Part shown: piece by piece, positions 1 through 30,565 of the stretch | How positions within the stretch are numbered: the stretch's first letter is position 1 | How the letters are laid out: each line of letters starts with the position of its first letter | IMG/VR virus record: IMGVR_UViG_3300030419_004161 | Span: 1 to 43,727 of that record | DNA from: a virus | Direction: 5' to 3' (one strand) | Length of the DNA: 43,727 nt | Made by a program: the position numbers and the translations under genes | The notes under the pieces: generated by a model | Told to the model about the DNA's origin: nothing | Seen by the model: the letters and a program-made list of their open reading frames with translations, nothing else | Database searches by the model: none

Positions 1-3000
1 ATCACCATTTTTAACTAAGGCCATTGTAGATCCCTCTCTATATTGCCAATTTCCATTTTTATCCAACCTACCAAAATTATACAAATTATACATTTGAGTT
101 TTAAGAGAGTTAACCTGACTTTTTAGACCTTTAGTTTTTTCCCCTTCTTTAGCGTTATTTATTTGATTCTGTAAATTGTTTGTGTCCTTTAACAATTCAT
201 CTATAGTTTGTTTTCTAACATCAAAAATATTGTCAAGCTCTACCACACGTCTAAATAATCCTATAAGACCAACTTTTTCTATTTGATTAGGTTGCATATC
301 AGAAAATATAGGATTAACATTATTAAATAGATAGTGTTTAGCTGCTCCAGGAGCATTTCCCCAAGTAACAAATGATAACATTTTAGAAAAAGCTGCTTCA
401 CCTAAATTATGGTTTTTAGCTATCCTTTCTATATTGTTTTTTAAATGATATTTAGAGTCAACAGACCACGTTTTGAATTGTTCATATCTGGTTTTATAAG
501 GCATTCCTTCTTTAATTTCTCCTCCAACAGGCTTGAAAGGATCTCTTAAAAAGTCTTTGAGTCTAGAAAACCAAGCATCCTTACCTCCAGACACTTGAAT
601 TCTATGATTACCAACTATATTCCTATGAGCCGCCTCTAAATCCTCTTTAGTGTATCCCTCTTTAGGATTAGCATTTTGAGAAGTTAATTTCTCTTGTTCT
701 TCAGACAACAATGAAGATGCCAACGACTCTTCTTCTAGATTTCCTACATCTTCTTTCTTTATGATATTTTCTCCCGTTGATGTCTTTTCATTTTTAGAAA
801 TAAGAGTTTTATCCTCATACATATCTTCATTGAAGTATTGCTTAATAAACGTTTCTCTTTCTCTATTCCATTCATTATTTTCTTTAAGATATTTTATAGC
901 TCTGTCTATTGATTTTTTTATATTAGATGTAGCCCTTAACGTTGATGACGCTAGCTTTAAAGCTACTCTAACAGCTGTTATGAAACCAAAATCAGAATAT
1001 AGCACTCCATCCTGAGTTCCCATTTCATTATATAGCTTATCTAATTTATCTGCAAACCTAATTAACTTTTCATATCCCTGAAGGCTTCTACCATTTTCAT
1101 CATATCCTCCTCTGATATCTGTGATGTCCTCGCCTGCGATACCACTGTCAAGCGCTGCTTGCCTTCTGATAAGCTCTGTTTTGATGTCTGTTTTAAACGA
1201 TTTTTCTTCTCTGGTGATTGATTCATATTCTCCATTTGTAATTACTTTAGTGTTAACATATCCTTTTTCTACATAATTTATATAACCTTTACCTAAGGTT
1301 TCTTTTATAGCTTCTAATCTTGAGTCGAAATCTACGTTCAATTTACTCATAAATTCAGAAGAGTCGAAGTTTTCATCTACAACTAATCCAGGCTCAATAG
1401 CTAATGAGGCGCTCCCACCTGATATAGGACCAGAAGTTTTCTTCATATCATATTCAGGTACAGCTTGAAATTCCACGCCTATTATATCTCCTTTTTGATC
1501 ATAATTAAATGAATAACCACTAATACCATTTTGATCCATAACATCCATAATCTGAGACTGCTGATCTTTAATTAAAGGATTGTTGAATTCTATTCTAGCA
1601 AAAGGCCTAGCATTAGGGTGATTAGGATCTACTGTTTTAGAAATAAATACAGATGTTTGATTATTATTAACTCCAATCTCTATAGCTTGATCCACAACAT
1701 TAGAAACGTCTGTCCCCTTAATTATAACTGCGGAAGCTGTAATGTTTGGTTCAGCTTGATTATTGTAAACACCCTCCCCTATTCTTACATCTGCAGCCAT
1801 AGGATTGAGAAGCTTTATAGATTCGTTTAAGTTAGTTTTAGCCTGATCCATTCTTACAGCACCCGTTAAACTCTGAACCATTACATGACTTAACTCTTCA
1901 TCTGTAGCTCCACGATCCATAGCCTTCTTAATCTGCCTATAGGCTGTTGACTTTATACCTAACTCATTACCCTTCCCTATATAAGCGGATGATCCAACAA
2001 CAACCCTCTCTGTGGACTCTAAGGCTAATATCTCAGTGTCTAAGGTCGCCAATTCTTTAGCTGTCACCGTCCTTGAGTAACCCATCTTGTCCCAGTAGAA
2101 CTTCTCTAAATGCCAAAATAAAGCTTGTGCGTCTTCAATCTTTAAATCACCAAGACCTAATTCATTTCCGTATTTTTCTGTAAAATTCTTAAACACCTCT
2201 TGGCTAAATATAAAATCAGGATCAGAAACTCCCTGCTCTTGAGCCTGTCTACGTCTCCAGAATATTGGCTCAGAAGGAAGAGAAGGTCCAGAAGGAGGAA
2301 ACATAGTATACATAGGTGTACTTGAATCTATTTCAGTATTAGCTTTAGCTAGACCTTTTTGAACAAAACCTTCCCAAACAGCTTTAGCTTCATCACTCAT
2401 AGCAGAGTCTGAGTTTAAAGTTAATCCTTGGTTCTTGTATAAATAATCATTAGCAATCCTATACAACATGGTACCTATCCCTTGGCCTTTTAGTCCGTCA
2501 TCTATATAAACACCCAGTACATCACCGCTATCATCAAAAGAGAGTTCGCCCACCAACGTGTTACCATCTCCTGTTACATTATTGTAAATCTTAACTCCAT
2601 CTTCATCAATTTTATGACCTATCTCTCCAGGCCCTAACATTACATTTTCATCATACGGTACAAAATTCTTAGCCACAGCAGGTGCAACATCATCAGTTTT
2701 ATAAACTGAGTCATAAAGAAGTCTCCTCATAAATCTAGCAGCCCATACGTCAATAGTTGCATTATGATCTCTTTGAGATAAATTTTGATAAAACTGTTGC
2801 GTTTTAAGAGCTGGACTTCTATCCAGCCAATTACCATGTAAAACTCTTATCATAGCGCCATTAGATCCTGCACCCCAAGTTCCATTAACCCCTCTAGCTT
2901 TTCTAATTTCTTTTTTTATGTTTTCATGGTTAGACAAACTTTTAATTGCATTAGTCGCCTGCAATTCAGTCATTAACCCATCTGTATGTTTTTTTATTAT

Positions 3001-6000
3001 AGGATTTATTAATCCTCTATATATCTCTAATGCTTTATCTAATTTTCCTTGAGCATATAAAGTTGTAGCCTCGTTAGCTTTCTTATGATTATTAGCAGGT
3101 GTAGTCTGAGGAGAAGATGCAGCTAATAATTCAAAATATAATTTTGCGTGTGGGCCAAACTTCTCTTGAGTCACATCATTAACTCTTTTATACCATCCAG
3201 TAGCGTCTTCTGCGAAGTCTTTTAAATTAACTCCATTTTGATCAAGGAATCTTGTCAGCCTATTAAACTCGGTAAGCATAGCTCTACCACTAAAATCAAC
3301 CATCTCCTCCCTTTGAATATCCGCATCCTTACCAGGAGTTATAACTTGGTTAAATATAGGTGCGTCAATAATCTCGTAATCAAATTCTTTCATTATAATC
3401 TCTCCACCTTTTCCAAACTTAGGATAACCCCATTTACTATAACTAATCTCATAGGGTTGTAATTGCATTTCAGGATTTTGTTCATTCCATAATTTAGATT
3501 CTTCTTCAAGCCTGATAGCATTTTCTACTCTCTCTAATTTACTCCCCTTATATAAACTCTTACGTATTTTAGGATCTTTAATGTTAGCCTTCTTAACCAT
3601 TTGATGAAGGGAAGAAGCTTCCTGCTCAGTAAATTGATTAGGATATTTTAACTGTAAAGCTTTTATAAATTTCTTTTTATTTCCCTTTACATCGTTATAT
3701 GTTTTAACAGCTTTTTGATCTATTCTAGTCACACCAAACAAAATATTATTTTTTGCTTCTTCTTTTATGTTTTTAGGTAAATCTAATTTTTCAAAGGCGT
3801 TATTTATAGCTGCTGCCAAACTTTTACCAGCGACAAGGCCAGCTTTAATAGATCTTAAAACAACTTGAGCAACCTCAATCCATGTATCTTTTGTTCCTAG
3901 ACCACCTAATATATCTGATCTAATATTACCATCTTTGTTTTTAGCCAACCAATCTAATCTATCATCTATCCATGATAATATTTTATCTACCGCTTCTTTG
4001 TTACTTTCAGGGACCGACTCGCTTTGAGTAGAAGCATTGGAGTTAGATCTAGCCTGTCTAGCTATTTTTAATATATCTCTCAATTCTTTTGGTTGAATTT
4101 TTCTACCTAAAGATCTTTCTAAAGAAGAGATGGAGTGCTCACTACTATTTGCAATTTTCATTAAATAATCTATCGCCTCAGCTTTAGTATCTCCAATTTT
4201 TGATCTTGTATTAATCTCATACCATCCACCTCCTGGCTTTTTCTTTATGAAGAAATCTATACCTTGTATTCTACCTTTATATCTTTTTTCTTTATAGGAA
4301 TATGAGAATGGTATATTTTGCCTCTCTTGACCCTCTAGTTTTCTTCCCCAATTTTGAACAGGATTAAAAGTTTCAAGAACAGAAAGAGCGTTAGGGAGTT
4401 TATCAAAACTCTCTAATAATCCAGATATATCATTAAGACTGACCCCATTTAAGAATTTATTAACAACTCTTTCTTGATTGGTAGTTAGTGACACATCTGT
4501 TTTTTTACCATCTATAGCATTGGATAGAGCGTTTAGAATTATATTGGTTTCAATATCTCCATATCTAGACTGTAACTTTTTAGCTAATTCTTTTGTTGTT
4601 TCAACATCTAACTTATTGTTATAAAATTGATTTTTTATTCCTTGTATCCCCTTGGCGGTAAATTCAGCATCTAATTGATCTGCAAAAGATTCAGCTCTTG
4701 ATTTAATTTCCCCTTCAGTTTCTATTTTTCCCGTTGGCTTATCAGCCTCTTTCTCTCTTATCTTAGCTTTAATTAATTTAATAGCTTTAAATTCTAATTC
4801 CTTAGTTTCCTGAACATCGGAGTCAAACCTATCTTTAAGCTCATTTAGTTGTTCTGGCGTGTAATTAAACTTAGAGTCAGCAAATCTTTGAACTGTATTC
4901 CAATCTCCAGCCTTTAAAGCTGCATGATATATTTGATAATATTCTTCAATATTACTCATTCTAAGGTACAGTTCATTTTTCCCGTATTCAGAAACATTTT
5001 CTTGACCTTTATTTAAAGACTCATTTATTAAATTTTCAACAGATCTCCCTATACGACCTTTAGCGGCAGCTTTATTAGCTTCAAGAGCTTCTACACCATA
5101 TGTTGTTCCATGTTTGTCTGGTTTTATATATGCTGAGTTGTCAAAAGATTGATCTATTTCTCTCTCAAATTCTATATCATTTTCAACTCTAACATTAACC
5201 TTACCATTTTTTACATCTTCTATAAATGTAGGATCAGACATTAAACTTTGAACAGTTTTCTTTGGTAATGATTTTCCATCTATTATATACCTTCCTAAAG
5301 GTTGATTTAAAGGCTTTAATATATCTGGAGTCATTTCTTTCGCTTGATCATATGTTCTTTCTTCAAGATCAGTAACTGCCTCTCCAAATGCAGAGTTTCT
5401 ATATTCTTCTTTAGCTTTAATCAAATTGATAGCGTGTTGCTTATCAGAAGGAGATAATGGCTTACCTCCCTTTTTCGGGTTTGTTAGATCACTTGACCCA
5501 TCAACCATCCTTTTCAATTCCCCTTCTATAGTATTAGATGTAGCAATAGTAAATGCACTAGACAATCCAAAAGTCATTACCATAGTAACCCCTAACCTTT
5601 TGAGCCTTTCATCTCTAGTTTTACCAAAAACACGTTCATAATTCCTTTCCCAATCATATCCATTTTTACTCACATCATTAACAAATTCACCAGCGTACTC
5701 TGCTATTGTTTCAGCTGTACCCCCGACCCCAATTCTCTGAGGGTAATAAAGAGCTTTTAAAGGAACTTTTTTTCCAAGACCTTCATACATCCCCATCAAC
5801 ATTCTTGTGTATCTATTGGTTTTTAATGCCTGTTTAAAATTACTCTGAACAAAACCTTCTGCTGCTCCCATCTCCCAACCTATAACATCTCCCCTAGTGG
5901 CTTCAAAAGCAACACTACCAGCGACCATATCTTTACTTGTTTCAAATAAATAATTACCAATCTTTGTTGATTTAGATCTATCTAGCATTTTTGCAAACCT

Positions 6001-8919
6001 AGGGACCTTATTTAGTAGTGTGTTAGCACCTTTTACACTCGTTGCTACAGCTCCATACCCCAATGGCATTGTTACCATTAGTTCAGCCATTATAGAGAAT
6101 GTGGTTCCTAAACCTTGAGCCAACATATCACTAAAATCGATCTCCCCCTCTTCCTCTTGTAAAGCGGTTACGGGTATGTTATTTTTCTTAGATATGTTAA
6201 GCATATTATTAACTATATCAGAATCTGTAAATGTTCTACTTTTTGTCATTCCAGTAGAGAAACTTTGACCCATTTGGGTAAAGAACTCTTTAGCTTTTCG
6301 TCCTTCATATATTTTAGCGAAATCAATATTATAAGATAGAGCATTCTGAATAGCTAAAAACTCTGTTAAATTATTTTGATATCTATTTCTAAAAGTTGTA
6401 AGGTGGTTAAGCATAGCTTCCCAATCCTCTTTTTTGTATGTTCTACCAGAGAATATACCATCCTCATAAGGTCCAGCAGCACGTTTTATTATTCCACTAA
6501 GTATTTTTTTATCCAACTGACTAAAACCAAACATTAGTCCTATACCTACACCATCTTCTTCAAGTTGATCTTCAACTCTTTGAGCGGTACTTACTTGAGG
6601 GTTAACAATATTTTTTACTATTGAAGCTGGTGGGAATGCTACACTCTCAGGACCAAAAGTTAATCCCTTTTTTGATAAACCATAACTCCAAAGCATTTTT
6701 TTCATTTCTGCTAAAGTCATTTCTTGACCATTAGGAAGTTCAAACTTTTGACTATTATAAGCCTCTTCCATTCCCAATTTATTTGAGTAAATTTTATTTC
6801 TAGCCTTAGTGTATAGATCTAACTTTTCACCTTCAGTATATCCAGTTTTATATTTATTTATAGCATTCTCTTCTTTTTGTCTAACTGTTAAGTTAAATTG
6901 TACAGCATCTTCAGAGACTCCAGAAACAGGATCGGCTAATTGATTGCTCACATCATAATGTCTCTTTTTTATTTCTTCATGTTTAGACACTAAGGCAGGA
7001 AGCTCAACATTGATCATGTTTGCTAATCTTTTCTCCATCGCCAATTTCTCTGCCTCATTCTTCTCCTTACTTATTTCGACTTTAAGTTTTCTTATATCCT
7101 CTGACTTATTTCTAATATTCTGGTTGACAACTTCAATTTTATACAGGTCATTATCTTCAGGATCACCTATATCCATAGTTGTTTGAGTTAGCATTAAATC
7201 ATGCAGAGTTTTTTCGTCATATAGGTTAAGTATATTTGCAGCATTAGTGACAGCCATATTATTATACTCTTTACCTACATTAGATAGCCCATCTAGAAAA
7301 ACTTGATCATTTTTAGCATCCTCATAAGAATCAAATACACCATTATTTCTTTGATATTCATCTATAAACACATCCGCAAAATGCTCAGGGGTGTGTCCAG
7401 ATCTTAAAAACTCATTAGCAGTTTGAACAACTAGATCAAAATTTAAGCCCTTCATTTTATTTTCAGGATCAACAATCTTTTGAATCTCTTCAAGATTACC
7501 TATAGCATATTTATTTACCGTATCCTTATCTTTTAGATTTATAGTCTTAAGCGTTGTGGCTAGATTGTTTTTATTAATCTTATCTTTTAGATCTTTTGAG
7601 TGCCTAGAATACATTTTTAGCTCTTCAGATACAGCCATAAACCTTTCCTTGTCCTCTTCATTTAAATTGTTAAAATCTAAAACGTTAGTAAATAAATTAA
7701 AGTGTTCATTTTCCGCTTTATTTGATAATTCATTTAAGTTAAGTAGAGACTCATAGTAATTTAATCCCTCCTCATCTAAAGATATTGTGCCATCTGGATT
7801 ATCTGGGTCTATCTTGCCTGTAGGCACTGTAAAAACTTGATCTCCAGTGTTATCGTCTGACATTCTCATTATATCTCTTCCTTGATCAGATATTTGTATA
7901 GCATTAGGAATTTCTAATGTGCTTGTTGCTTGTCCAAACATAATTTCTGGATCATCATACTGCACTTCAAGTTTTGAAGATGTTTGATTTTTAGGATCCA
8001 CCATCTGGAGTAAATGGTCAATATTTAAATTAGGGTTTTCGTGGTATAATTGAAGGGCTTTAAATACAGAAGCTGTATCTGTAGTGTTTTTTAAAAACTT
8101 TTTAAAATCCTTATCACCTTCTAATTCCTTTAATCTCTTCTCAACATCTGCACTTCTTCTAGACTTATTTAGGTTTTTAATATCTATTTCTTCCTTTATT
8201 TTAAGATCTAATTGACTTTTTATATTATCAGGAACCTGATCTAATGGTACAATTTCTCCATTTTTTAGGAAGTTTTTTGATATATCATCATAATCCCACA
8301 CATCATTATCACTGCTTTGAACTGGGCCAAAAGATTGTTGCTCATCATTGACAAATGGAACCACAGCCCCCTCCTGAGCATTGAATGTTTTTCCCTTTGG
8401 AATTTCAACTATTTTTGAAGCAGGGGATGTTGTCATGGATTCTCCAGGATTTAATACTCCTTGGTATTCCCCATCAGCATAAACATCTATAGGATAACTT
8501 TGTCTACCTTCTAAAGATCTTGGTTTAGTATCATTAAAATTAAGGGTAGCTGAAGTCCCCTCTTTAGCCCCTTCTAAACCTTTCTGAATCTCCTTATCAG
8601 TCTTTAAATTAAGATCAGTTTTAAACGGTTCTTTTGTTCCCGACAACACCGATCCTCCAGTTCCCAAACCTGATAAACCATTTGCCAAATCTTTTTTTTT
8701 TAACGTGTACTTACTCACAATTTGGCCTATTTGATTTTCACTAGGTACCTTTCCCAATAGATTAGCATACATTTCTCTAATCATAGAGTGGTAGTTACCG
8801 TCAAAATTTGCTAGGATAGAATCAACCTGAGGTTGAGATGGTGTTTTTTTTGTTATTTGCTTATAAAAGTCTTTAATAAACTTTATAGCATTTTTATCCT
8901 TTTGATAAATTATTGCCAT
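1..8919 (-). CDS. Giant polyvalent-type phage protein with GNAT-like domain (C-terminus beyond window)
   Basis: One reading frame is open from ATG at 8919 to the left edge, 2973 codons with no stop, so the protein is larger still. Visible parts: a PGE/EGAVVP motif near residues 155-190; a charged coiled coil near 587-653; hydrophobic stretches near 937-962 and 1110-1130; a conserved phage module with WYKR (about 1908), a SPQTTPANN-like motif (about 1940), TIDVWAAR (about 2056) and QALFWHLEK (about 2265); a GNAT acetyltransferase-like segment with LKGQGIGTMLY near 2142-2152; and a GVYNNQAEPN domain near 2382-2490. This combination is typical of phage polyvalent proteins, which are packaged and injected with DNA to counter host functions. 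It is the last visible gene of the tail operon and starts 19 nt after the 711-aa gene. Substrate and target are unknown. Polyvalent assignment is likely; virion location is inferred. Confidence 0.8.
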   Translation of the reverse strand, partial: MAIIYQKDKNAIKFIKDFYKQITKKTPSQPQVDSILANFDGNYHSMIREMYANLLGKVPSENQIGQIVSKYTLKKKDLANGLSGLGTGGSVLSGTKEPFKTDLNLKTDKEIQKGLEGAKEGTSATLNFNDTKPRSLEGRQSYPIDVYADGEYQGVLNPGESMTTSPASKIVEIPKGKTFNAQEGAVVPFVNDEQQSFGPVQSSDNDVWDYDDISKNFLKNGEIVPLDQVPDNIKSQLDLKIKEEIDIKNLNKSRRSADVEKRLKELEGDKDFKKFLKNTTDTASVFKALQLYHENPNLNIDHLLQMVDPKNQTSSKLEVQYDDPEIMFGQATSTLEIPNAIQISDQGRDIMRMSDDNTGDQVFTVPTGKIDPDNPDGTISLDEEGLNYYESLLNLNELSNKAENEHFNLFTNVLDFNNLNEEDKERFMAVSEELKMYSRHSKDLKDKINKNNLATTLKTINLKDKDTVNKYAIGNLEEIQKIVDPENKMKGLNFDLVVQTANEFLRSGHTPEHFADVFIDEYQRNNGVFDSYEDAKNDQVFLDGLSNVGKEYNNMAVTNAANILNLYDEKTLHDLMLTQTTMDIGDPEDNDLYKIEVVNQNIRNKSEDIRKLKVEISKEKNEAEKLAMEKRLANMINVELPALVSKHEEIKKRHYDVSNQLADPVSGVSEDAVQFNLTVRQKEENAINKYKTGYTEGEKLDLYTKARNKIYSNKLGMEEAYNSQKFELPNGQEMTLAEMKKMLWSYGLSKKGLTFGPESVAFPPASIVKNIVNPQVSTAQRVEDQLEEDGVGIGLMFGFSQLDKKILSGIIKRAAGPYEDGIFSGRTYKKEDWEAMLNHLTTFRNRYQNNLTEFLAIQNALSYNIDFAKIYEGRKAKEFFTQMGQSFSTGMTKSRTFTDSDIVNNMLNISKKNNIPVTALQEEEGEIDFSDMLAQGLGTTFSIMAELMVTMPLGYGAVATSVKGANTLLNKVPRFAKMLDRSKSTKIGNYLFETSKDMVAGSVAFEATRGDVIGWEMGAAEGFVQSNFKQALKTNRYTRMLMGMYEGLGKKVPLKALYYPQRIGVGGTAETIAEYAGEFVNDVSKNGYDWERNYERVFGKTRDERLKRLGVTMVMTFGLSSAFTIATSNTIEGELKRMVDGSSDLTNPKKGGKPLSPSDKQHAINLIKAKEEYRNSAFGEAVTDLEERTYDQAKEMTPDILKPLNQPLGRYIIDGKSLPKKTVQSLMSDPTFIEDVKNGKVNVRVENDIEFEREIDQSFDNSAYIKPDKHGTTYGVEALEANKAAAKGRIGRSVENLINESLNKGQENVSEYGKNELYLRMSNIEEYYQIYHAALKAGDWNTVQRFADSKFNYTPEQLNELKDRFDSDVQETKELEFKAIKLIKAKIREKEADKPTGKIETEGEIKSRAESFADQLDAEFTAKGIQGIKNQFYNNKLDVETTKELAKKLQSRYGDIETNIILNALSNAIDGKKTDVSLTTNQERVVNKFLNGVSLNDISGLLESFDKLPNALSVLETFNPVQNWGRKLEGQERQNIPFSYSYKEKRYKGRIQGIDFFIKKKPGGGWYEINTRSKIGDTKAEAIDYLMKIANSSEHSISSLERSLGRKIQPKELRDILKIARQARSNSNASTQSESVPESNKEAVDKILSWIDDRLDWLAKNKDGNIRSDILGGLGTKDTWIEVAQVVLRSIKAGLVAGKSLAAAINNAFEKLDLPKNIKEEAKNNILFGVTRIDQKAVKTYNDVKGNKKKFIKALQLKYPNQFTEQEASSLHQMVKKANIKDPKIRKSLYKGSKLERVENAIRLEEESKLWNEQNPEMQLQPYEISYSKWGYPKFGKGGEIIMKEFDYEIIDAPIFNQVITPGKDADIQREEMVDFSGRAMLTEFNRLTRFLDQNGVNLKDFAEDATGWYKRVNDVTQEKFGPHAKLYFELLAASSPQTTPANNHKKANEATTLYAQGKLDKALEIYRGLINPIIKKHTDGLMTELQATNAIKSLSNHENIKKEIRKARGVNGTWGAGSNGAMIRVLHGNWLDRSPALKTQQFYQNLSQRDHNATIDVWAARFMRRLLYDSVYKTDDVAPAVAKNFVPYDENVMLGPGEIGHKIDEDGVKIYNNVTGDGNTLVGELSFDDSGDVLGVYIDDGLKGQGIGTMLYRIANDYLYKNQGLTLNSDSAMSDEAKAVWEGFVQKGLAKANTEIDSSTPMYTMFPPSGPSLPSEPIFWRRRQAQEQGVSDPDFIFSQEVFKNFTEKYGNELGLGDLKIEDAQALFWHLEKFYWDKMGYSRTVTAKELATLDTEILALESTERVVVGSSAYIGKGNELGIKSTAYRQIKKAMDRGATDEELSHVMVQSLTGAVRMDQAKTNLNESIKLLNPMAADVRIGEGVYNNQAEPNITASAVIIKGTDVSNVVDQAIEIGVNNNQTSVFISKTVDPNHPNARPFARIEFNNPLIKDQQSQIMDVMDQNGISGYSFNYDQKGDIIGVEFQAVPEYDMKKTSGPISGGSASLAIEPGLVVDENFDSSEFMSKLNVDFDSRLEAIKETLGKGYINYVEKGYVNTKVITNGEYESITREEKSFKTDIKTELIRRQAALDSGIAGEDITDIRGGYDENGRSLQGYEKLIRFADKLDKLYNEMGTQDGVLYSDFGFITAVRVALKLASSTLRATSNIKKSIDRAIKYLKENNEWNRERETFIKQYFNEDMYEDKTLISKNEKTSTGENIIKKEDVGNLEEESLASSLLSEEQEKLTSQNANPKEGYTKEDLEAAHRNIVGNHRIQVSGGKDAWFSRLKDFLRDPFKPVGGEIKEGMPYKTRYEQFKTWSVDSKYHLKNNIERIAKNHNLGEAAFSKMLSFVTWGNAPGAAKHYLFNNVNPIFSDMQPNQIEKVGLIGLFRRVVELDNIFDVRKQTIDELLKDTNNLQNQINNAKEGEKTKGLKSQVNSLKTQMYNLYNFGRLDKNGNWQYREGSTMALVKNGD

Positions 8920-8937: not shown

Positions 8938-11073
8938 TTATACATTCATTGTTGGAGAAAATTCTCCATCAAACATAAAATCAAATGAGTCACCAGAAGA
9001 GCTTGACGCTCCAATATCTGATGCTTTATATTGTTTTTTATTTCCGTTTTCGTAATAAAATATTCCTTCTCTATTTATTTCTTCCGCTTTGTCTATATGT
9101 TCTTGATATTTACCTATGCCACTACGCTCTTCTTGAGTCATTAATGCATTAAGAGGAACATACACATCAATACTATTATCTTTATTTAAAGCATTGTCAA
9201 TATCTGCACTGCTTATATCTGTTCCATCATCTTTTGTTAATTTTCCATTTTGGATTGATACACTTATATTTGAACGCAGGTTATTTTTATCTTGAGGAGT
9301 CCAAGAACCTAGTAATACAGGAACTGCATAAGCATATTTAGCTTGTTCACTATTTTTAAAGATAGCTTGATTGTTAGATACATCATTTTGATTATCGAAT
9401 GTTATAAGGTTTCCATTTCTCCTATCTATATAAGCTATACCGATTTCACCCAATCTAGTTGAACCAGCAACACCAGCTAAAGACTTAGTCATAAATGGCG
9501 TTTTGGTAATCATACCAACATCTCTAAGATCTTTTATCATATTTTCTCCGTCAACATCTTGGAAATTACTCACTGTAAATTGTCTTGTGGCTGTTATATT
9601 AGGTATACCACTACTGTTACTTAAGTAACTTTGATTACCACCAACATCAACTTCTTTGATTAATAGGTCTTTAGTCACAGGGATTTGATCTCTTTTCAAT
9701 TTACTGGTATAAGCATCACTATGCATATCTTTCATAGCGTGACCCAACATATAATCTTCTAATATATATTCAGCCATGAAATCACTATAATACTCTATCC
9801 TCTTACCTTCTTTTCCTTCTTTTCCAAACTTGTATTTAAAATCCCACTCATCAGGTATGAGTCCTTCGTCAGTCTTTCCGCTTGAAATAAGCTTCTCCAC
9901 CCTTTGAAGTTCTTGCTCTGATGGGTTATTATTTCCTTCTAATCTAAGTATTTCATACGCTGTTTGGTGAGCCGCAAGAGCTGCTAGATCACCATTTGTA
10001 AAGGCTCCACCTCGGAAAATTGTTTTTCTGAAAGCTTGTCCTCTAAGGCCATTGATAGCTTCATCAGTAAAAAACTCTGTTGTCGCTTCTGAGTGTAAAA
10101 TATCCCTTTTTATATCATAATCCAAACTATCAGCTAATTTAGATACAGCATCTACCTCTGTACGTTTTTCTTTGAGAACATTCTGATTCAACATTCCTAT
10201 GTCCCAGTATTTGTAATAGTTTGTGCCCCCATATGTGAGATCTCCATTACCTGTAAATACAAGATTATCACCATTAAACTCTCTGTTAAAAAGCTGTTGA
10301 TACATATATAATGGTTTTCCGTCTTCACCTGTAGCTTCCATAGGTGATATTCTACCAGTATTCCTTCCTTTTTTTCCCACTCTCTCAAATCCTCTTACTC
10401 TATTTCCTTCTGTGTCTAATAAATATCCTTGCTCATCAAAATTATATTGTCCATCATCATTTGCTTTAACATCTTGATAATAGTGTGTATTACCCTTATC
10501 GTGGCCATACCACATTTCACTCAGTTTTTCTCTTTCTTCTTTGTTTAAATCCGAATAGCTTCTCCCTTGCAAAACACCATCCAACATATTTTTATCTATA
10601 AAGACATCTACTTTTTTAACATCACTATCATCTAATTTTTTTCCAAGACCATACTCCCCTTCCTCAAGGTGAGCAGCTTCAAACTCTTGATACGCTTTTA
10701 CATACTCATTACTGTGTTCAACAAACTTTTTAGCGTTACGAATCATGTTTTGGTAGACATTGTATATCTCCCAGTTAAATTGCCCCTCTATATCGTCTGT
10801 TGCTGTATTGTTTTTATTTAGTGAGTTTGCATGTACTTGTGCAAATCTATGGATATCTGCAGTTATCTTCTCAAAACCATCTTTAAACTTATCAGCAGGC
10901 TCTGTATCAAATTGGGCTATTAAAACCCCCGACTGCTTCATCTGCTTCTCCTCCTTCTGTTTACGTGTCTCTCGAGCCTGTCTCCTTTGTTGACGCAACT
11001 GACGCTGCCTCATTTGGAGGCCAAGAAAATCATAAGGTTGAAAATTAGCACCTTTTACAAAAGCATAACCCAT
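8938..11073 (-). CDS. Unknown large protein, probably virion or cargo protein
   Basis: A 711-residue protein I do not recognise. The N-terminus (residues 17-45) is very rich in Arg, Gln and Lys and could be a basic helix binding nucleic acid or a partner. The rest is hydrophilic, mixed alpha/beta, with no signal peptide or membrane segment. Residues around 460-560 contain repeated Asn/Ser-rich strands. It lies between the 398-aa gene (start codon 2 nt after that gene's stop) and the giant polyvalent gene, at the distal end of the neck/tail operon. In crAss-like phages this position holds cargo or tail-associated proteins, so an ejected or tail-internal protein is plausible. That is inference from position alone. 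Confidence 0.75.
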   Translation of the reverse strand: MGYAFVKGANFQPYDFLGLQMRQRQLRQQRRQARETRKQKEEKQMKQSGVLIAQFDTEPADKFKDGFEKITADIHRFAQVHANSLNKNNTATDDIEGQFNWEIYNVYQNMIRNAKKFVEHSNEYVKAYQEFEAAHLEEGEYGLGKKLDDSDVKKVDVFIDKNMLDGVLQGRSYSDLNKEEREKLSEMWYGHDKGNTHYYQDVKANDDGQYNFDEQGYLLDTEGNRVRGFERVGKKGRNTGRISPMEATGEDGKPLYMYQQLFNREFNGDNLVFTGNGDLTYGGTNYYKYWDIGMLNQNVLKEKRTEVDAVSKLADSLDYDIKRDILHSEATTEFFTDEAINGLRGQAFRKTIFRGGAFTNGDLAALAAHQTAYEILRLEGNNNPSEQELQRVEKLISSGKTDEGLIPDEWDFKYKFGKEGKEGKRIEYYSDFMAEYILEDYMLGHAMKDMHSDAYTSKLKRDQIPVTKDLLIKEVDVGGNQSYLSNSSGIPNITATRQFTVSNFQDVDGENMIKDLRDVGMITKTPFMTKSLAGVAGSTRLGEIGIAYIDRRNGNLITFDNQNDVSNNQAIFKNSEQAKYAYAVPVLLGSWTPQDKNNLRSNISVSIQNGKLTKDDGTDISSADIDNALNKDNSIDVYVPLNALMTQEERSGIGKYQEHIDKAEEINREGIFYYENGNKKQYKASDIGASSSSGDSFDFMFDGEFSPTMNV

Positions 11074-11075
11074 AA

Positions 11076-12272
11076 TTAAAAGTTTAGATTAGCACTAGGA
11101 AGATATCCCATCTTAGCTCCACCTTTAGCTTCTTTAGCTGACTTTTTCTCCTCATGCTCTGCAGTTACTTGATTCCATTTAGTAATTAAATATTCCATTT
11201 TCTCAAAGACTCCCTCCTCGTCATTTTCAGATAATAAAAATTCTAATTCAGACATATCTTTAGGAGGTATTATCCCTTCACCACCTGTCATTTCACCTAT
11301 TTTTTCTCCACCTTGAACTATATCAATAGGGTTTGTTTCATGAGAAAACTCACCTGGTGTGACTTCCGCTTCTTCCGCTGGTAGCATATCTTGCTTTGCT
11401 CCTTCCTCATACTCCTGTATCTTAGCTCCCTTAGCAGCCTTAGGAACTTTCATCCCCTTTTCTCCTGGAAGTATCTCACCTATACCTATTAGCAACTCAC
11501 CCATCATACTTCCAAAAGCTGCTGTTTCGGCCCCAGTTAAAGCTATATCGGCAGCTAATAATGAACTATATAAATCACCGTAAGAAGCAGTAAGATCTCC
11601 AAAAACATCCGCCTCTGCTCCGAAAATTGTTTGTTCAGCACCAACTTCCATTTGAGTCAAATCTCCTTGAACCTGAGCTGTTAAACTAGCTAAATACTTA
11701 TCTTGTTCTTGCTGCATTTTTTCTTCTTCCAACTTCATTCCAGCAACCTCCTTCTGAGTTTGTATATCTGCTGTAGCAGCAGAATCTAATATTTGCTTAG
11801 TTCCTGTAGGCATTCCAGTCTTTCCCATTTGAGCGATAGCCGCTCCTGTTCTTCTCTCTTGTACGTCTTGAAGGTTTTCACCAAACTCAGTAGAAACAGA
11901 CTCTATAGGTTTTAGCATTCCAGGTATATCATCTCTAAAATCTTTTAAATCCTGATAAGATTCAAGGCCTTGAACATCTAAACCTGGACCATACAAGTCC
12001 CAATCGGCAAACCCTTCCGATACCGTAGTGCCAAGATCCAAAGCATTAAGTTCGGATTGAATATAAGTTTGTTGTTCATCTATTGCACTCCAAATTCCTA
12101 GATTCTCAAGGAATGTTCCTACTGGATCTAAAAAATCCAATGGATCAGGTTGAAAATAATTTTTCCCCTTCTCTTTATCACCTAGTCTCATCTCCTTATC
12201 CTTATAAGAATTTTTACCTCCCTTACTGTAAGAAGGTGATATTTTAGGTCTATATGTCTGTTTGTTTTTCAT
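11076..12272 (-). CDS. Unknown tail-region protein with Ala/Glu-rich core
   Basis: A 398-residue protein. It has a basic N-terminus with SKGGK, an Ala/Gln/Glu-rich helical core (about 150-260), a short hydrophobic Gly/Ile stretch (about 255-270) and a C-terminal segment with VTPGEF, GEMTGGEGIIPP and a Lys/Glu/Ala-rich tail. The PGE...GGE...P pattern recurs in loose form near residue 160 of the giant protein downstream, so the two may share a short assembly or anchoring motif. It begins a sub-unit of the operon: a TATATTTG box ends 5 nt before its ATG. Function unknown; a structural or virion-associated role is inferred from its place between the 1750-aa tail protein and the giant gene. Confidence 0.75.
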   Translation of the reverse strand: MKNKQTYRPKISPSYSKGGKNSYKDKEMRLGDKEKGKNYFQPDPLDFLDPVGTFLENLGIWSAIDEQQTYIQSELNALDLGTTVSEGFADWDLYGPGLDVQGLESYQDLKDFRDDIPGMLKPIESVSTEFGENLQDVQERRTGAAIAQMGKTGMPTGTKQILDSAATADIQTQKEVAGMKLEEEKMQQEQDKYLASLTAQVQGDLTQMEVGAEQTIFGAEADVFGDLTASYGDLYSSLLAADIALTGAETAAFGSMMGELLIGIGEILPGEKGMKVPKAAKGAKIQEYEEGAKQDMLPAEEAEVTPGEFSHETNPIDIVQGGEKIGEMTGGEGIIPPKDMSELEFLLSENDEEGVFEKMEYLITKWNQVTAEHEEKKSAKEAKGGAKMGYLPSANLNF

Positions 12273-12308: not shown

Positions 12309-15300
12309 TTAATCATCACTAAGTTCACTGTTAAATATTGTGGCACTACCACTAAATATTTCAAGGAGCTTTTTAGATCTCTTTTTCATTTTGACCTCCA
12401 TATACCTTCCTTTCATCCTATCCCCCTCTGCAAAATTAGGCCTCTTTATGAATACAAATTCGTTAAATGTACTTCCTGGTATAAGGTTACCATGATTAGG
12501 ATTAAAATCTGGATTGGTTCCAAAACCCGTGTCTACATCAGAAGGATTACCATCCTGATCTAAAAACTCTAAAGGACTTCCTGTATTATCGTAGAACCCT
12601 GGATAATCATCAGTATAAAGTTGATTAAGTTGTATAAATGGTATTGTACTATCTGGTTGATTTATCATGAATTCTTCATTTATAAACCCTATACCTGTAA
12701 TTGTACCTAGCGCTATATCTTGACCAAAATAATTGGAATAAGGAAAATTATTGTGATAATATAAAGTATCGGAAAATGCTTGAGAAGTGGGATCTAACGC
12801 ATCAAAGTTTGAAAATCCTAAACTATCCTGATCTTCATTCTGAAATATAATATTAGCTCCTGCAAATTGAGTAATATCAGTACCACTAAGTGGGACGGCC
12901 GTTATCAGTCCAGGTCCTAATATAGAGTCTGATAGAGTATAAGTGACCTCTCCTAATCCTATCACTTCAGAGCCCGTACTACCTGTTGTAACAAAAGGTA
13001 TCTGAGCATATTGCTTGTTTTCCCTCTGGTCAAAGTTATGTCTATTTATAGATGTTTCAGTCATATCTGTTTTTAAATCAACATCATAAGAAGTTAAAAC
13101 CTCTTCCTCTACCCCATTCTCATCAGACTCAAAAGCTTGATTAGCCTCTAAAGTTATTGTTTTAAATCCTTTAACAGTAGAAGGGCCTTCATTTATATAG
13201 AAATCTAATTCTGTATAGTATGTTATACCATAAAAAGTGTTATAATTATCCTCATCCATATCATGTAAATAAAGGGCCCCATTCTTCCAGGAGGTAAATA
13301 AGATATTTATCTTACCATAATAATCAGAAATATGAGAATAGTTAGTAACCCATCTATTTTGTGGTTCAGCCCAAGCTATTGTAGATCCTTCTATTATATA
13401 TGGGTTTTCTTCTATTTGAGCCTCTAACTCTTCATGTAACTCCCAATTAAAAGCTGAATCGTCATAAGCATCACCTGTCAAAACAGAAGCATTTAACTCC
13501 TCCCAACGATCTGGCACATTATGTATATGATCGAATTGAACTATATATTCTGTGTGTTTAGGATTAAACCCCCCTTTCACTCTAAAGAACTTGTGAAGAC
13601 CTTCAAGCATATCGTTATCTATAAAACCATAGTTTTGCTCCCATTTATATTGAGGATCATATTCTTTATAGGTTTCTGACTTATCCCTAAAGTAATCTAT
13701 CATTTTAACTTCAGATATAGGACTTATACCATTCTCTTTTAATCTAATAACAGCGCCTCTTCTCATATCAACCCAATAACAAACATTTCCATCTACAACA
13801 AAAGACTCAGGATTCTTACTTATTCCGTAGTGTCCATTATAAGGTCTAGGAGGCCCTAAAATCTGATTAGAAATACCAACATTCTCCTCACCAGAAGCAC
13901 TTAGTATTATGTCTTTTTGAACAGGAATATTATATGTTTTATCTTCATAAATTACAACCACATCAGTATCTCTAGCATATATCCTTTGTATACTTCCATC
14001 TATCTCACTATAATCTCTATAGTTAGCGGTGTTGTTATCAAATGTACTTAGTCCATTAAAGTTTGTTGCTGGTTGGTAAACATCAGAATATGTTATAGAA
14101 GATATTTTATCAAACTTTTTATAGAAAGGAGAGTATAGGTTAGCTCTACCAAGACTAGCATGATTTGTATTGAGGTAGTCATTTAAAAAGTAAGACTCTA
14201 CATAGAATGTGTTTCTACCCTCATCAATAGTGGTGGTGGCATCGATATCATTATTCAATATACGCATATTTCTCTCTTTGTAATATACGTCCCCCGTAAG
14301 AAACTCACCTGTAGCTGGTGTATCAGAAGTAAAATTTCCGAAAGCGTCTTGAGTGAACACCATGCCTTGATCCGATATTCCCCCTAAATGTCTTCTTGAA
14401 ACATCAACATCATATAATTTGCTTAGTTCAAAAAATATTGTTTCCTCTGGTCCAGGCTCTTGCTTTGGCCTATATATTTCAACTGTAGATTGTATTATGT
14501 TGTTAAAGTTGTTTGTATTATATCCATTTATAGCAGTTCCCGTATTGTCTAAAACCTCTTCTATTATAATATAGTACCCATCTTGACTTCCATCCCCATC
14601 AAGGGCATTTAGTCCAGCAGCATTTAATATAGGTACATTAGGATTAGCTTGAGTATAATATTCAAAACCAACTATTCTAACGTCTATATAATTGTTAGCT
14701 CCTGTTATAATGTCTTGATCTATATTAGCAGTAACAGTATTGTCACCGTCAGTTATAAATCGTATTCTATCTCCTTTAACAAAATCATAATCCCAAGCTT
14801 CTACATTAGGGTTAGGAACATTATCCTCGTTTAACGGATCTGATGATATAAATGAATCCTTATTTCCTTTCAAACCTCTTAAGCTTAAGAATAGTCTATT
14901 ATCATTAGCGTTTGGAGCATTGTTAGTGAATACATCTAAAATTCTAAATTGTATAAATTCATCTACAGTTGTATTTCTAGAGTAGAACCATCTATAATGC
15001 TTAGCCCAAGCAGGAGCCCGATGATTTATTTCCCACTTAATAGTTACAGCCCCATAAAGATCATACTCAGGTGTGCCAGAGGGTATGTCAGTACCTTCAT
15101 TTCTTTCTGTAGGAAATTTAACATAAACTTGTGATCCGCTAGTTCTATCATTACTTGTTAATACGGTAGAACATCTACCTCTTTCATCGTAATATACTAT
15201 ACCAAAACTATGGTAGGCTCCACTTTTAAATGATGAAACTCCAAATCCATCAGGATTAGGGTCAGGCCCAGTGATATCACCATATGTTGCGCTATCATAA

Positions 15301-17561
15301 TTAGACCCCCCATACTCCTGTGTAGGATCAGACTGTGAATATCCATATTGAGGTATTAATCCTACATTAATCATAGGAACATCATATCCTACAGTATAAT
15401 TACCGTAGGCTAATCTATTATTTCCTAATATCGTTTGAGTTTGTGCAGATCTTGGAACAGCATCAAATAATCTATCTCCTTCTCCTGCGTCAATAAAGGG
15501 ATATAATTGATCATTATAAAAATCTATTTCCTGTTCCGAGTTTCCACTTGTTTGCCATGCTCCAAAATTATTGTCAATCTTAGCTATAGTAAAAAACTCC
15601 CCTCTAGTTCCTTTAGGGAAATTACCTAAATCTTTACACCTTCTACCAGCCAGCTCAATGTATTTAACTATACCAGATGAGTTTTTAACAGAAACCACTA
15701 TTTGGTTGTCAGTAAAAGGAGCAGGAACCGCTTGAGGAGAATTACTAGCGTCATGAGATGACGCAACAACATCGCTTATAGGAGACCATGGGCTAACTTC
15801 ATTATCATAAAAATGATATCTATATCTAAATTGGAACATATATCCAAATAGATTATTTTTAGAATTATTACTGTCATCCGCATAAACATATGTTGGAGCG
15901 TGCATAGGTCCTCTTTTCAAAACCTCAACATACTGTCTTTTTAATTCCGTAGGGTAAGTATCGCTATATAAATTATAAGGGTAATAATCCTCTAAAGATA
16001 AATCATCATCTCCACCCTCCTCATCTAAAGTATAAGGACCTATATTATCTATAACATCTATACTGTTTTTTGATTTTCTAACATTTATAGAGCAGGGTTC
16101 ACCATACTGTCTTGATGTCCAATATAAAACATCTCCAATCTTATTTATATCATTTATAAGAAATTCTTTTCTCCAATTAAATACACAGTTACTATTTCCA
16201 CAGTCTCTAAAAATTGTAGTTATAATACCTGTTCTAAGATCAAATTCTAATATTAAATGAAATTGTCCATCTTTATTTCCAATAGGCTCAGCGGCAACCA
16301 TCCAATATATTTTATCATTCTTAGTGTCCTCATAAGACCCTATAGTGGTGTAATTAATTGGAGGACCCTCTTCTTCTGGAACATCTGGTGCAGGAATTAT
16401 TAAAGCGTTAGCATGCATGATACCATGAGCAGTATTAGCAAGATTAGACCAGAGCGGGTGTCCATTTATTCCTATCGACCATCCCATGCTTTGAAAGCTA
16501 TTCATATATTCAGTTAAGAATAAAGGCTCGTTTTGTATTTGAGTAGCAACCCCCCAGTTTTCAGAGTCTGTCAAATCCTGTAGTGGATCATAGCCCCCAT
16601 TATCGTCAAGTAATGAACTCTGTGCATTACTGTACATATTATTAATATCCACAAACCCATGTAAATTACTGTCAAATAAACCTGCAGATGTTGGATAATC
16701 AGCCCATGCGTGAGATGAGTTTTGTGGTAAGGCTCTTAGATCTATATAAAATTCTCCAATTTCTGATTCATCACCCTCAAAAAGAAGTGCACAAGCATAT
16801 TTCTGTCCTGGAGTGTAATTTGGATGACTCGCTATATTATTTAAAACATTTTCTCCAAAAAAATATTCTTCATTAAAATACTCACTAGTATTATCAATCA
16901 CGCTAAGAGTAACACCTAAACCAGCAAAAACATCTGCATACTGCTCAACAAAAAAAGCTAAGTAGTCCTTCATAGTTGAAAAAGTCTCTCCATTATATGA
17001 TATTTCATACAGTAGAGATGGTGTAGCCATTTCAGCCAAACTAAAGCCTAAAGCTATGTTAAAAGTCATTAAATCAGGATATCCTATTTGCCCTTGGTAG
17101 GCTTGAGCATCCATGTAGGTTACAGGTAAAGCTGGTAGATTTGAAAATGCAGCCTCCGAACCTTGATCTGGCTGACCATCAAAAGTTGAAGTTGTTATGC
17201 TGTCAAAATTACCAGGCCAAACCATTTGATTAACTAAACTTTCTTCATAAAAATCTTGAATTAAATTTGTTTGAAAAGAGGTGTCTGGACCTTCGGGAGA
17301 ATAATTATTCCAATAATTAAACCAGGGCATAAATAGAGTTATCCTTCTAATTCCTTTTTTAGTTCCAGGATCAACACCTGGAAAATCATAGTTAGATAAT
17401 TTATTACCCTTTATATTTTCTATAACTCCCTGAGTATTAGCTTCAGACGCAATATTCCTAATATTTAAAGCGTGGTGATAATCACCATTCTTCAATAGTC
17501 TAGGATCCATATCCCTATCTAATCCACCTAAAAATATTCTTTTCGACTGTTTACTAGGCAT
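12309..17561 (-). CDS. Very large tail protein (stabilisation/muzzle-type)
   Basis: A 1750-residue protein starting MPSKQSKRIFLGGLDRDMD and continuing DPRLLKNGDYHHALNI. This opening (GGL.RD.DPRLL..GDY..A.NI) is the pattern I associate with the large tail 'stabilisation' or muzzle-type proteins of crAss-like and related Bacteroidota podoviruses. The body is rich in Asn, Asp, Tyr and Thr with many short beta strands, as expected of a virion protein; the C-terminus is basic (KMKKRSKKLLEIF). It follows the 241-aa ring-type gene after 4 nt and precedes the 398-aa gene. Most likely it forms the tail tip or tube exterior. The family resemblance is moderate evidence; the precise location in the tail is inferred. 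Confidence 0.75.
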   Translation of the reverse strand: MPSKQSKRIFLGGLDRDMDPRLLKNGDYHHALNIRNIASEANTQGVIENIKGNKLSNYDFPGVDPGTKKGIRRITLFMPWFNYWNNYSPEGPDTSFQTNLIQDFYEESLVNQMVWPGNFDSITTSTFDGQPDQGSEAAFSNLPALPVTYMDAQAYQGQIGYPDLMTFNIALGFSLAEMATPSLLYEISYNGETFSTMKDYLAFFVEQYADVFAGLGVTLSVIDNTSEYFNEEYFFGENVLNNIASHPNYTPGQKYACALLFEGDESEIGEFYIDLRALPQNSSHAWADYPTSAGLFDSNLHGFVDINNMYSNAQSSLLDDNGGYDPLQDLTDSENWGVATQIQNEPLFLTEYMNSFQSMGWSIGINGHPLWSNLANTAHGIMHANALIIPAPDVPEEEGPPINYTTIGSYEDTKNDKIYWMVAAEPIGNKDGQFHLILEFDLRTGIITTIFRDCGNSNCVFNWRKEFLINDINKIGDVLYWTSRQYGEPCSINVRKSKNSIDVIDNIGPYTLDEEGGDDDLSLEDYYPYNLYSDTYPTELKRQYVEVLKRGPMHAPTYVYADDSNNSKNNLFGYMFQFRYRYHFYDNEVSPWSPISDVVASSHDASNSPQAVPAPFTDNQIVVSVKNSSGIVKYIELAGRRCKDLGNFPKGTRGEFFTIAKIDNNFGAWQTSGNSEQEIDFYNDQLYPFIDAGEGDRLFDAVPRSAQTQTILGNNRLAYGNYTVGYDVPMINVGLIPQYGYSQSDPTQEYGGSNYDSATYGDITGPDPNPDGFGVSSFKSGAYHSFGIVYYDERGRCSTVLTSNDRTSGSQVYVKFPTERNEGTDIPSGTPEYDLYGAVTIKWEINHRAPAWAKHYRWFYSRNTTVDEFIQFRILDVFTNNAPNANDNRLFLSLRGLKGNKDSFISSDPLNEDNVPNPNVEAWDYDFVKGDRIRFITDGDNTVTANIDQDIITGANNYIDVRIVGFEYYTQANPNVPILNAAGLNALDGDGSQDGYYIIIEEVLDNTGTAINGYNTNNFNNIIQSTVEIYRPKQEPGPEETIFFELSKLYDVDVSRRHLGGISDQGMVFTQDAFGNFTSDTPATGEFLTGDVYYKERNMRILNNDIDATTTIDEGRNTFYVESYFLNDYLNTNHASLGRANLYSPFYKKFDKISSITYSDVYQPATNFNGLSTFDNNTANYRDYSEIDGSIQRIYARDTDVVVIYEDKTYNIPVQKDIILSASGEENVGISNQILGPPRPYNGHYGISKNPESFVVDGNVCYWVDMRRGAVIRLKENGISPISEVKMIDYFRDKSETYKEYDPQYKWEQNYGFIDNDMLEGLHKFFRVKGGFNPKHTEYIVQFDHIHNVPDRWEELNASVLTGDAYDDSAFNWELHEELEAQIEENPYIIEGSTIAWAEPQNRWVTNYSHISDYYGKINILFTSWKNGALYLHDMDEDNYNTFYGITYYTELDFYINEGPSTVKGFKTITLEANQAFESDENGVEEEVLTSYDVDLKTDMTETSINRHNFDQRENKQYAQIPFVTTGSTGSEVIGLGEVTYTLSDSILGPGLITAVPLSGTDITQFAGANIIFQNEDQDSLGFSNFDALDPTSQAFSDTLYYHNNFPYSNYFGQDIALGTITGIGFINEEFMINQPDSTIPFIQLNQLYTDDYPGFYDNTGSPLEFLDQDGNPSDVDTGFGTNPDFNPNHGNLIPGSTFNEFVFIKRPNFAEGDRMKGRYMEVKMKKRSKKLLEIFSGSATIFNSELSDD

Positions 17562-22239: not shown

Positions 22240-23688
22240 TTAAGATTTCTTGATCAACATGTAACGATTCGCAGCGAATCCTTCAAAACCTCTCTCAGTT
22301 CTATAGTGAGATTTAAGTCTATCTTGAGTCTCTGTTTTATTCTGTAGAACCGCAGAACCTGTTAACCAGTGCTCCATCTCTCTTGAATAACCATTAGCAG
22401 CTTTATATCGCATTCTCAACGAAGGAATCTTTTCACCACTCTTAGCATCTTTCTGCATATCCATAGGAATACAAATACCCCATCCTGGATAATTAGAACC
22501 AGTGTGAGCTGTTAATTTAGGGTGATTTAACAAATCATAAGTTTTCTTATGGAATGTGTAACCTCCTCTTGTGAAAGAGTTGAAACCTAAATTCAATGCC
22601 ATGTTCTTATTATTTTGGAAAGTACCAAAGTTAGCACCACCAGCAGCATAAGCACCTTGAGCAGCTAATAAATCATCAATATCTAAAGATAAATTAATAC
22701 CAGCGTACATAGCCATTTCTTTTGCACCTCGGTATTTATCTAAAGACTTAACAATATTATCAAAGTCCGCCATTGTAATTGCAGAAGCTCCTAAGTCCAT
22801 CGATTGCCCTTTGTTAGCAACAAAGTCAAATAAACCTTCTGTACTTCTAAGAGTAGATAAAGATTCAGATGTTCCATCAATAGTAGCAGAAGCTGATGTT
22901 AATGTAGAGTTGCTAATTTTTCGACCTAAAATCATTTGCAATTCGCAATAGTCCATAAATCTTTTATAAGTGTCAGCTTCACCCTTTAAATACCAAAGAT
23001 AACCTGATCCCATTTTTTCATTATCAACTTTTACGTAAACTACGTTTGTAGCTTCAGTACCTGAAACTTCAAATGATTCTTTCATAATCATCACGTTGTT
23101 TTCGTATTCGTGTAATAATGGAATTAAAGATCCTGGTTGTCCTGATGATTCAGGATAAGCATTACCTATAATAGACATTTCATATGTAGAACTAGCTGTT
23201 TTGTCAGATCCCCACGTTGTAAGTGGAAGTATTGTAATAGGATCAATAGCGTTAGGTGGAGTAACTACTGTTACGTAACCCATGTCACCATCTGCGAATA
23301 AAACAATATCCCCAACTCTTACTGGGTGATCATTATCAAAATCATTAGTATCTATATTGTCAGTTATAGCAACATCAATAGCATCCGTACCAGTTGCCGA
23401 AGCACCTGCGTTACCATCAGACTGAACTGTAACTGTCATATCATTATGTCGGAAAGCTTCCTCATAATGTTCAAAAGCTGTTTGAGAAACAGGAGCCTTA
23501 GATCCCATTAACTCTAGAAGACCAGTAATACCTTGATCTCCATATCTTTTTATTAATTTCTCCGATACGTCACGTTTATGCAACTCTCCAGAGGTTGTTG
23601 TTAAAGAACTAACATAGTTCTCCGTAGTAGCAACCTGAGCAGCATTTGGTGTTAAAACCATACCAGAGCCTAAACTTACTGTAGCCAT
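22240..23688 (-). CDS. Major capsid protein
   Basis: A 482-residue protein. The segment GITGLLELMGSKAPVSQTAF followed by EHYEEAFRH near residues 53-83 resembles the N-terminal region of crAss-like and related Bacteroidota phage HK97-fold capsid proteins. Residues 85-200 are an Asp/Thr/Val-rich beta region (possible surface insertion); the C-terminal half (ELQMILGRK, DLGASAITMADFDNIVKSL, FTRGGYTFHKKTYDLLNHP) fits the P and A domains. It follows the scaffold-like gene by 34 nt in the same operon, with an A-rich leader (TAATAAAAA) and no Shine-Dalgarno. The length and abundant-protein context support the call. Confidence 0.85.
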   Translation of the reverse strand: MATVSLGSGMVLTPNAAQVATTENYVSSLTTTSGELHKRDVSEKLIKRYGDQGITGLLELMGSKAPVSQTAFEHYEEAFRHNDMTVTVQSDGNAGASATGTDAIDVAITDNIDTNDFDNDHPVRVGDIVLFADGDMGYVTVVTPPNAIDPITILPLTTWGSDKTASSTYEMSIIGNAYPESSGQPGSLIPLLHEYENNVMIMKESFEVSGTEATNVVYVKVDNEKMGSGYLWYLKGEADTYKRFMDYCELQMILGRKISNSTLTSASATIDGTSESLSTLRSTEGLFDFVANKGQSMDLGASAITMADFDNIVKSLDKYRGAKEMAMYAGINLSLDIDDLLAAQGAYAAGGANFGTFQNNKNMALNLGFNSFTRGGYTFHKKTYDLLNHPKLTAHTGSNYPGWGICIPMDMQKDAKSGEKIPSLRMRYKAANGYSREMEHWLTGSAVLQNKTETQDRLKSHYRTERGFEGFAANRYMLIKKS

Positions 23689-29406: not shown

Positions 29407-29427
29407 AATAAATTTTAGCCAATTATG

Positions 29428-29435
29428 CAAATATA
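29428..29435 (-). promoter_or_regulatory. -7 box TATATTTG before terL
   Basis: Minus-strand TATATTTG lies 21 nt before the chosen terL ATG and 20 nt after the stop of the upstream gene. No clear -33 TTTG is present at the right spacing, so activity is uncertain. Confidence 0.45.
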
Positions 29436-30564: not shown

Positions 30565-30565
30565 A

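Follow-up and report, generated by a model that had tools for sequence, protein, structure and literature searches.

A conserved A10 tract in a giant phage gene as a probable site of programmed slippage between two products

A giant gene on the minus strand of the window, by which we mean the whole 43,727-nucleotide stretch of viral DNA analysed here (positions 1 to 43,727 of IMG/VR record IMGVR_UViG_3300030419_004161), carries a run of ten A residues near its 5' end. Both the run and its position are conserved in related phages, and the -1 frame that follows it is under purifying selection. Comparison of these sequences makes it very likely that the tract is a site of programmed slippage, through which one gene would give a giant protein, itself a probable virion cargo, and a short product of about 100 residues. 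Recoding at homopolymers is already known, but the open-access literature searched contained no example of a giant cargo gene with a conserved A10 joint close to its 5' end and a selected overlapping tail after it, and the arrangement seems undescribed.

The giant gene closes the structural operon

The giant open reading frame (1..8919, minus strand) starts with ATG and runs for 2973 codons without a stop, far longer than expected by chance. Its 3' end is open at the contig edge: the window and its 49,252-base linear record share their first base, and the C-terminus lies beyond that record. The protein therefore has at least 2973 residues, and since homologous unbroken frames in related records span 3,644-3,954 codons, its full size is likely to be about 3,644-3,954 aa. 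The initial annotation had described a minus-strand frame of more than 2970 residues, open to the window edge, at the distal end of the tail operon. The open frame is borne out by the complete homologous frames, and the placement by the position of the giant as final gene of the structural operon. Neither a search of a phage collection with the whole giant nor a search of viral contigs with single-sequence patterns taken from it gave a match. Homologues were subsequently reached in viral contigs by going through the terminase large subunit (TerL), with segment identities of about 25-62%. In one relative (L124, about 5,510-5,610) the homologous giant is broken by undetermined bases, translated as X residues; this split is probably an assembly gap and no real frameshift.

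The neighbours of the giant form the structural operon of a short-tailed phage, also encoded on the minus strand. They comprise TerL (27382..29430, 42.5% identity to the closest named sequence), a portal protein (24988..27381), an SU10-type major capsid protein (22240..23688), a muzzle-type protein matching Pfam crAss_MUZ_C (12309..17561), a 398-aa protein (11076..12272) and, directly upstream of the giant, a 711-aa protein (8938..11073). A GroES-like co-chaperonin gene lies beside the terminase at 29983-30603, as it does in elemo and Callevirus phages. By TerL and muzzle, the named phages closest to the window are Manatee Spring phage ctfjg026, the elemo Flavobacterium phages, Callevirus phi38:1 and Maribacter phage Panino. 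Their structural operons all close with a giant gene, encoding 3859 aa in ctfjg026, 3694 aa in elemoA (gp21, Flavobacterium), 1691 aa in phi38:1 (gp101, Cellulophaga) and 1829 aa in Panino; where the phi38:1 and elemo records use the label "structural protein", it is an annotation. These four giants resemble that of the window in their place at the end of the operon and in their arrangement of N-terminal module, A tract and -1 tail, but have no BLAST similarity to the window protein and no Pfam GNAT match. The annotations consulted make no mention of the two-frame arrangement.

The gene order of the window (muzzle, 398-aa protein, 711-aa protein, giant) resembles that of crAss001, where muzzle gp44 is followed by gp45, gp46 and gp47. 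The three crAss001 proteins after the muzzle are cargo found in virions, gp47 being RNA-polymerase-associated (PMC10172136). The 398-aa and 711-aa proteins thus stand at the positions of cargo C1 (gp45) and cargo C2 (gp46), and the giant, encoded two genes after the muzzle, at that of a Crassvirales-type cargo. Profile comparison with hhalign revealed no homology between the two upstream proteins and gp45 or gp46 (P 0.06-0.6) and does not support them as C1 and C2 homologues; the 711-aa protein shows a short N-terminal resemblance to gp46 only, as judged by eye. The 398-aa family is kept in relatives and weakly matches phi38:1 gp099. The window giant gave no match to a polymerase domain, in contrast to the RNA-polymerase-related annotation of gp47, and the crAss001 cargo genes have no sense-strand run of nine or more A residues, unlike the window gene. 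We regard the giant as a probable virion cargo of crass/Pervagoviridae-like short-tailed Bacteroidota phages, and infer from its gene order alone, through this resemblance to crAss001, that it would be packaged and ejected with the DNA.

A homopolymer run is conserved at a fixed place

The A10 tract lies at 8692..8701 on the minus strand, corresponding to nucleotides 219-228 and codons 73-76 of the gene. A run of A9-A11 is present near the 5' end in all 17 giants checked, and no further run of nine or more A residues occurs in these 17 genes. Across 303 ORFs from 24 loci (489 kb), nine sense-strand runs of at least A10 were found and all nine are the giant-gene tract, although some of the genomes are related and lineages are fewer than genomes. 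Base composition alone predicts 1.2 A/T runs of at least 10 per record, which makes such runs not unusual, and the argument rests on placement. A few relatives also have A9 runs in their terminase ORFs (L043 10025-12082, L055 9956-12025 and L056 9968-12037).

In most giants the tract reads TTA AAA AAA AAA G, and every close relative of the window has exactly A10. Two additional records contain the same A10 with an open -1 tail. Among the variants, ctfjg026 and one further record (L122) have A11, elemo has its A10 in another phase, coding for EKKN, and Panino and Pachyviridae have A9. The tract therefore occurs in three codon phases and encodes different peptides (LKKKD, QKKKD, EKKN), which indicates that the DNA run is kept and not the peptide. 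LKKK is found near residues 33-114 in most giants, preceded by modules that are seemingly unrelated.

The A9 variants coincide with unusual gene annotations. In Pachyviridae (phi19:3, phi46:3 and phi13:2) the N-terminal module and the A9 run are annotated as a separate short "structural protein" beside the giant (L385 12056-12364, L391 880-1188 and L392 757-1020), with the giant body in another frame. In Panino, an N-terminal module with A9 lies just upstream of the annotated giant CDS0069 (L115, about 26,090-26,277), again in another frame, and CDS0069 starts late; the Panino giant gene is probably longer than annotated, or recoded. Either the run was undercalled in these A9 records, homopolymers being prone to sequencing error, or the giant is out of frame there unless slippage adds one A.

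The -1 frame after the tract is under purifying selection

In the window, the -1 frame continues beyond the tract as a tail, RFGKWFIRFGNWRIGVVGNKRTV, that overlaps the giant frame (8621..8691, minus strand) and ends at a TAA stop (8621-8623). In the giants checked, this frame stays open for 22-43 codons after the run and then stops. Tails of distant phages have a basic start and a W-x-F-G-like end in common, as seen on comparing the window tail with those of L129 (RPKRRRFIGCGKWYIRCGRYWFGLFRG), phi38:1 (RKRRAFGIEFYLWSGSFKFGWFRL) and phi19:3 (RRFRIYFSKSAIGFGASSRSWFFGWCTK).

Two measures of selection on the tail come from comparison with the nearest relative, L117. Over the 22 codons after the tract, identity between the window and L117 is 0.86 in the -1 frame and 0.59 in the giant frame, against background values of 0.29 and 0.45, respectively. 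When the same comparison is made in sliding windows along the gene, 9 of 1781 are as extreme in favouring the -1 frame over the giant frame, and six of these are at the site. The remaining three lie near codon 2820 (codons 2820-2844, window about 400-460), where the -1 frame is likewise better conserved than the giant frame in the L117 comparison. Substitutions between the window and L117 at giant-frame codon positions 1/2/3 number 1/8/1 in the 60 nucleotides after the run and 1141/865/1443 gene-wide, showing that changes after the run fall on the third position of the -1 frame. Equivalent counts are 1/11/4 for the window and L118 and 0/8/3 for L117 and L118, all drawn from few, related genomes and a short overlap.

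The codon-position test needs no motif, unlike a further test based on the tail sequences themselves. The motif [WFYSR]x[FI]G[LFWVIC][FVISC] is present in the -1 tails of 10 of the 13 lineage representatives and missing in three, against 0.04 under synonymous recoding of the giant frame; it was chosen post hoc, after the tails had been seen, and the computed probability of 1.7e-26 is not to be taken at face value. The aromatic content of the tails differs weakly from synonymous recoding (p=0.89 for the window, p=0.011 combined), so the case is carried by the frame-conservation and codon-position tests. Translation of the -1 frame, with the same stretch of the giant frame serving as a tolerant linker, would produce this conservation pattern.

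Two other accounts of the tract were weighed against these data. The first, that the tract arises only from selection for an LKKK peptide in AT-rich genes (a signal for packaging or cleavage, for instance) and that the -1 frame is untranslated, is hard to reconcile with the substitution pattern after the tract and with a tail motif recurring across most lineages. It draws on the presence of LKKK within the first 120 residues of 14 of 18 giants, compared with 2 of 457 background windows, and on AAA being the usual lysine codon (0.48-0.83). Since elemo has its A10 in the EKKN phase, and Panino and Pachyviridae keep A9, we consider this account very improbable; in elemo, ctfjg026 and Panino the run is retained without the peptide, which is why the A tract displaced LKKK as the proposed signal. 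The second account is that the tract is phase-variable (a contingency tract), its DNA length changing such that a given virion or lineage would produce one form only, giant or short. Two alternative products would select the -1 frame in the same way, and A9, A10 and A11 are all found across lineages, yet the available records of single groups show a constant length. A 501-base search around the site returned 68 elemo records, of which the full-length ones listed are 99.2-100% identical in one piece; 18 of those listed (some of them duplicates) are identical and hence equal in tract length. Together with the uniform A10 in the close relatives of the window, this makes phase variation improbable.

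A proposed mechanism with one gene and two products

Under programmed slippage, straight reading through A10 would produce the giant, while addition of one A by RNA polymerase, or a -1 slip by the ribosome, at codons 73-76 would change the frame. The -1 frame would then give a 99-residue protein (8621..8919, minus strand; 11.6 kDa, pI 10.2) in which the N-terminal helical module of the giant is joined to a basic, aromatic tail (KKKRFGKWFIRFGNWRIG...). The module spans residues 1-76 (8692..8919, minus strand) and ends in the LKKK encoded by the tract. Being common to both predicted products, it may have a docking or packaging role for each, and the slippage ratio could set how few giants enter each virion. 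The basic-aromatic character of the tail hints at contact with membranes or nucleic acids, and the tail may act on the membrane or on DNA.

The slippery run at a fixed place and the selected second frame after it are both features of programmed slippage. No consistent RNA structure was found downstream of the tract (z +1.05 to -2.23), and a stimulated ribosomal frameshift is not specifically supported. As transcriptional slippage does not require such a structure, this result leans towards transcriptional slippage without proving it.

The tract may also be a joint for module exchange, since phi13:2 and phi19:3 are near-identical downstream of the run and differ in their N-terminal modules. More tentatively, the A tract could be a general joint in this group of phages, coupling a small basic-aromatic protein to a giant effector carrier through a common docking module. 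Such a joint would set the proportion of the two in the virion and let unrelated N-terminal modules be swapped. The small form might then be first out, acting on the cell envelope.

Known cases of recoding include lambda G/GT, the T7/T3 capsid extensions and transcriptional slippage in Shigella spa13 (reviewed in PMC5009743). Like the window gene, each has one gene with two products that have a common N-terminus, and a slip at a repetitive site; slippage in spa13 occurs after 58 codons (PMC5009743), compared with a tract at codons 73-76 here. The window differs in the sizes that its sequence predicts for the alternatives, about 3,600-3,950 aa for the giant and about 100 aa for the short protein, and in having the switch near the 5' end of a cargo gene. 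The slippage reading predicts an unannotated protein of about 60-140 residues across a group of Bacteroidota phages, including the cultured phi38:1, elemo, Panino and phi19:3. It also explains why annotations in Panino and Pachyviridae are split or start late, and opens the entry of a giant cargo, and the ratio in which it is packed, to direct test.

Domain composition of the giant

Alignment with relatives reveals conserved blocks at residues 1-76, 790-1260, 1533-1730, 1780-2081, 2213-2500 and 2520-2720. The 790-1260 block (5140..6552, minus strand, as are all features of the giant) contains two hydrophobic stretches (941-959 and 1109-1127) and has no confident fold; a structure model of it was discarded as uninterpretable (pLDDT 44). 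Blocks 1533-1730 (3730..4323) and 2520-2720 (760..1362) have no known family. Long parts of the protein had initially been described as free of recognisable modules. They indeed match no known family, but hold the relative-conserved blocks at about 790-1260, 1533-1730 and 2520-2720.

The sequence motifs quoted in the initial annotation are present, with TIDVWAAR at residues 2055-2062, QALFWHLEK at 2265-2273 and GVYNNQAEPN at 2383-2392. They had been counted as several modules, but TIDVWAAR and QALFWHLEK mark the two halves of a single DUF7178-like domain, formed by residues 1880-2081 (2677..3282) and 2213-2300 (2020..2283). The corresponding TIDVWAxR and QAxxWFxEK motifs are 58-85 residues apart in relatives showing both, and the 210-residue gap in the window is due to a putative GNAT acetyltransferase insert (residues 2082-2212, 2284..2676) that is absent from relatives. 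The match to L117 jumps from window residue 2077 to 2213 at adjoining L117 coordinates. Four Pfam GNAT models fall on the one segment, all below gathering cutoffs: Acetyltransf_10 (the best, 1.3e-4), Acetyltransf_7, Acetyltransf_1 and Acetyltransf_CG. The loop LKGQGIG resembles the acetyl-CoA loop R/Q-x-x-G-x-G/A, with K in KGQGIG replacing R/Q. A search of viral contigs with the GNAT segment found no relatives. GNAT-like segments resembling the insert are present in an internal virion protein of a Klebsiella phage (L383 4501-4860) and in the giant of a Leptolyngbya phage (L384 7001-7345).

The Pfam match of the domain piece to DUF7178 (5.8e-6, 26.8 bits) falls just below the cutoff of 27. An AlphaFold2 model of the nearest relative, which lacks the insert, has a pLDDT of 84.9 and shows a helical domain followed by an alpha/beta domain. 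The latter is ferredoxin-like and corresponds to the GVYNNQAEPN/ARPF region of the window (residues 2300-2500, 1420..2022). A Foldseek search of the PDB with this model gave nothing below E 0.05 among the 50 best, the top matches being ferredoxin-like. Among the viral structure models that match the pair of DUF7178-like and ferredoxin-like domains are large phage proteins, some of which bear the name "Large polyvalent protein associated domain" (weak matches). PDB profile searches with the DUF7178-like domain and the 790-1260 block gave nothing credible.

The DUF7178-like domain contains an invariant KT...ATIDVW motif with K2039 and D2057. In EndoIII, K120 and D138 are spaced by 18 residues. 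The K-T and D of the window have the same 18-residue spacing, and profile alignment places them in the EndoIII register with a score of 18.7, reached by 1 of 197 column-shuffled controls. The reading of the domain as an HhH-GPD glycosylase, in which K2039 and D2057 would form the catalytic pair, is nonetheless doubtful and no more than a lead, as the hhalign probability is just 0.6-1.4%, the Foldseek search had no HhH-GPD protein among its 50 best and a profile search of PDB sequences found none.

The initial annotation called the giant polyvalent-type, a kind of protein thought to be delivered with the genome to counter host defences; for this giant an anti-defence role is hypothetical. Phages and conjugative elements encode polyvalent proteins (Iyer et al. 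2017, PMC5512222) that likewise are very large, lie beside virion genes and combine several domains, with GNAT domains comparable to the putative one here, and ART-PolyVal occurs among window relatives; the parts of that account consulted here describe no second product from a slippery tract. The giant gene lies in or next to the late/virion cluster, at the crass cargo place, and its recognisable domains are the GNAT-like and DUF7178-like ones, both with Pfam matches below gathering cutoffs and only one of them enzymatic. The label holds for the size, placement and GNAT-like segment of the protein, but Pfam found none of the named polyvalent domains (LPD, ART-PolyVal) in the window protein itself. 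A purely structural, tape-measure or ejection-tube protein that carries no polyvalent effectors would suit the place after the muzzle, the long helical regions with no assignment, the two hydrophobic stretches of the 790-1260 block and the absence of enzyme matches over most of the giant. We consider it unlikely given the GNAT-like insert and the gain and loss of domains by lineage, and a tape measure is at odds with relatives that are short-tailed phages. It also sits poorly with the more distant giants at the same place, which in L127 and L130 carry ADP-ribosyltransferase (Pfam ART-PolyVal, in L127) or M15 peptidase domains. These domains suit a polyvalent-type carrier with exchangeable modules, and the giant is thought to be a multidomain protein of this type, ejected with the DNA.
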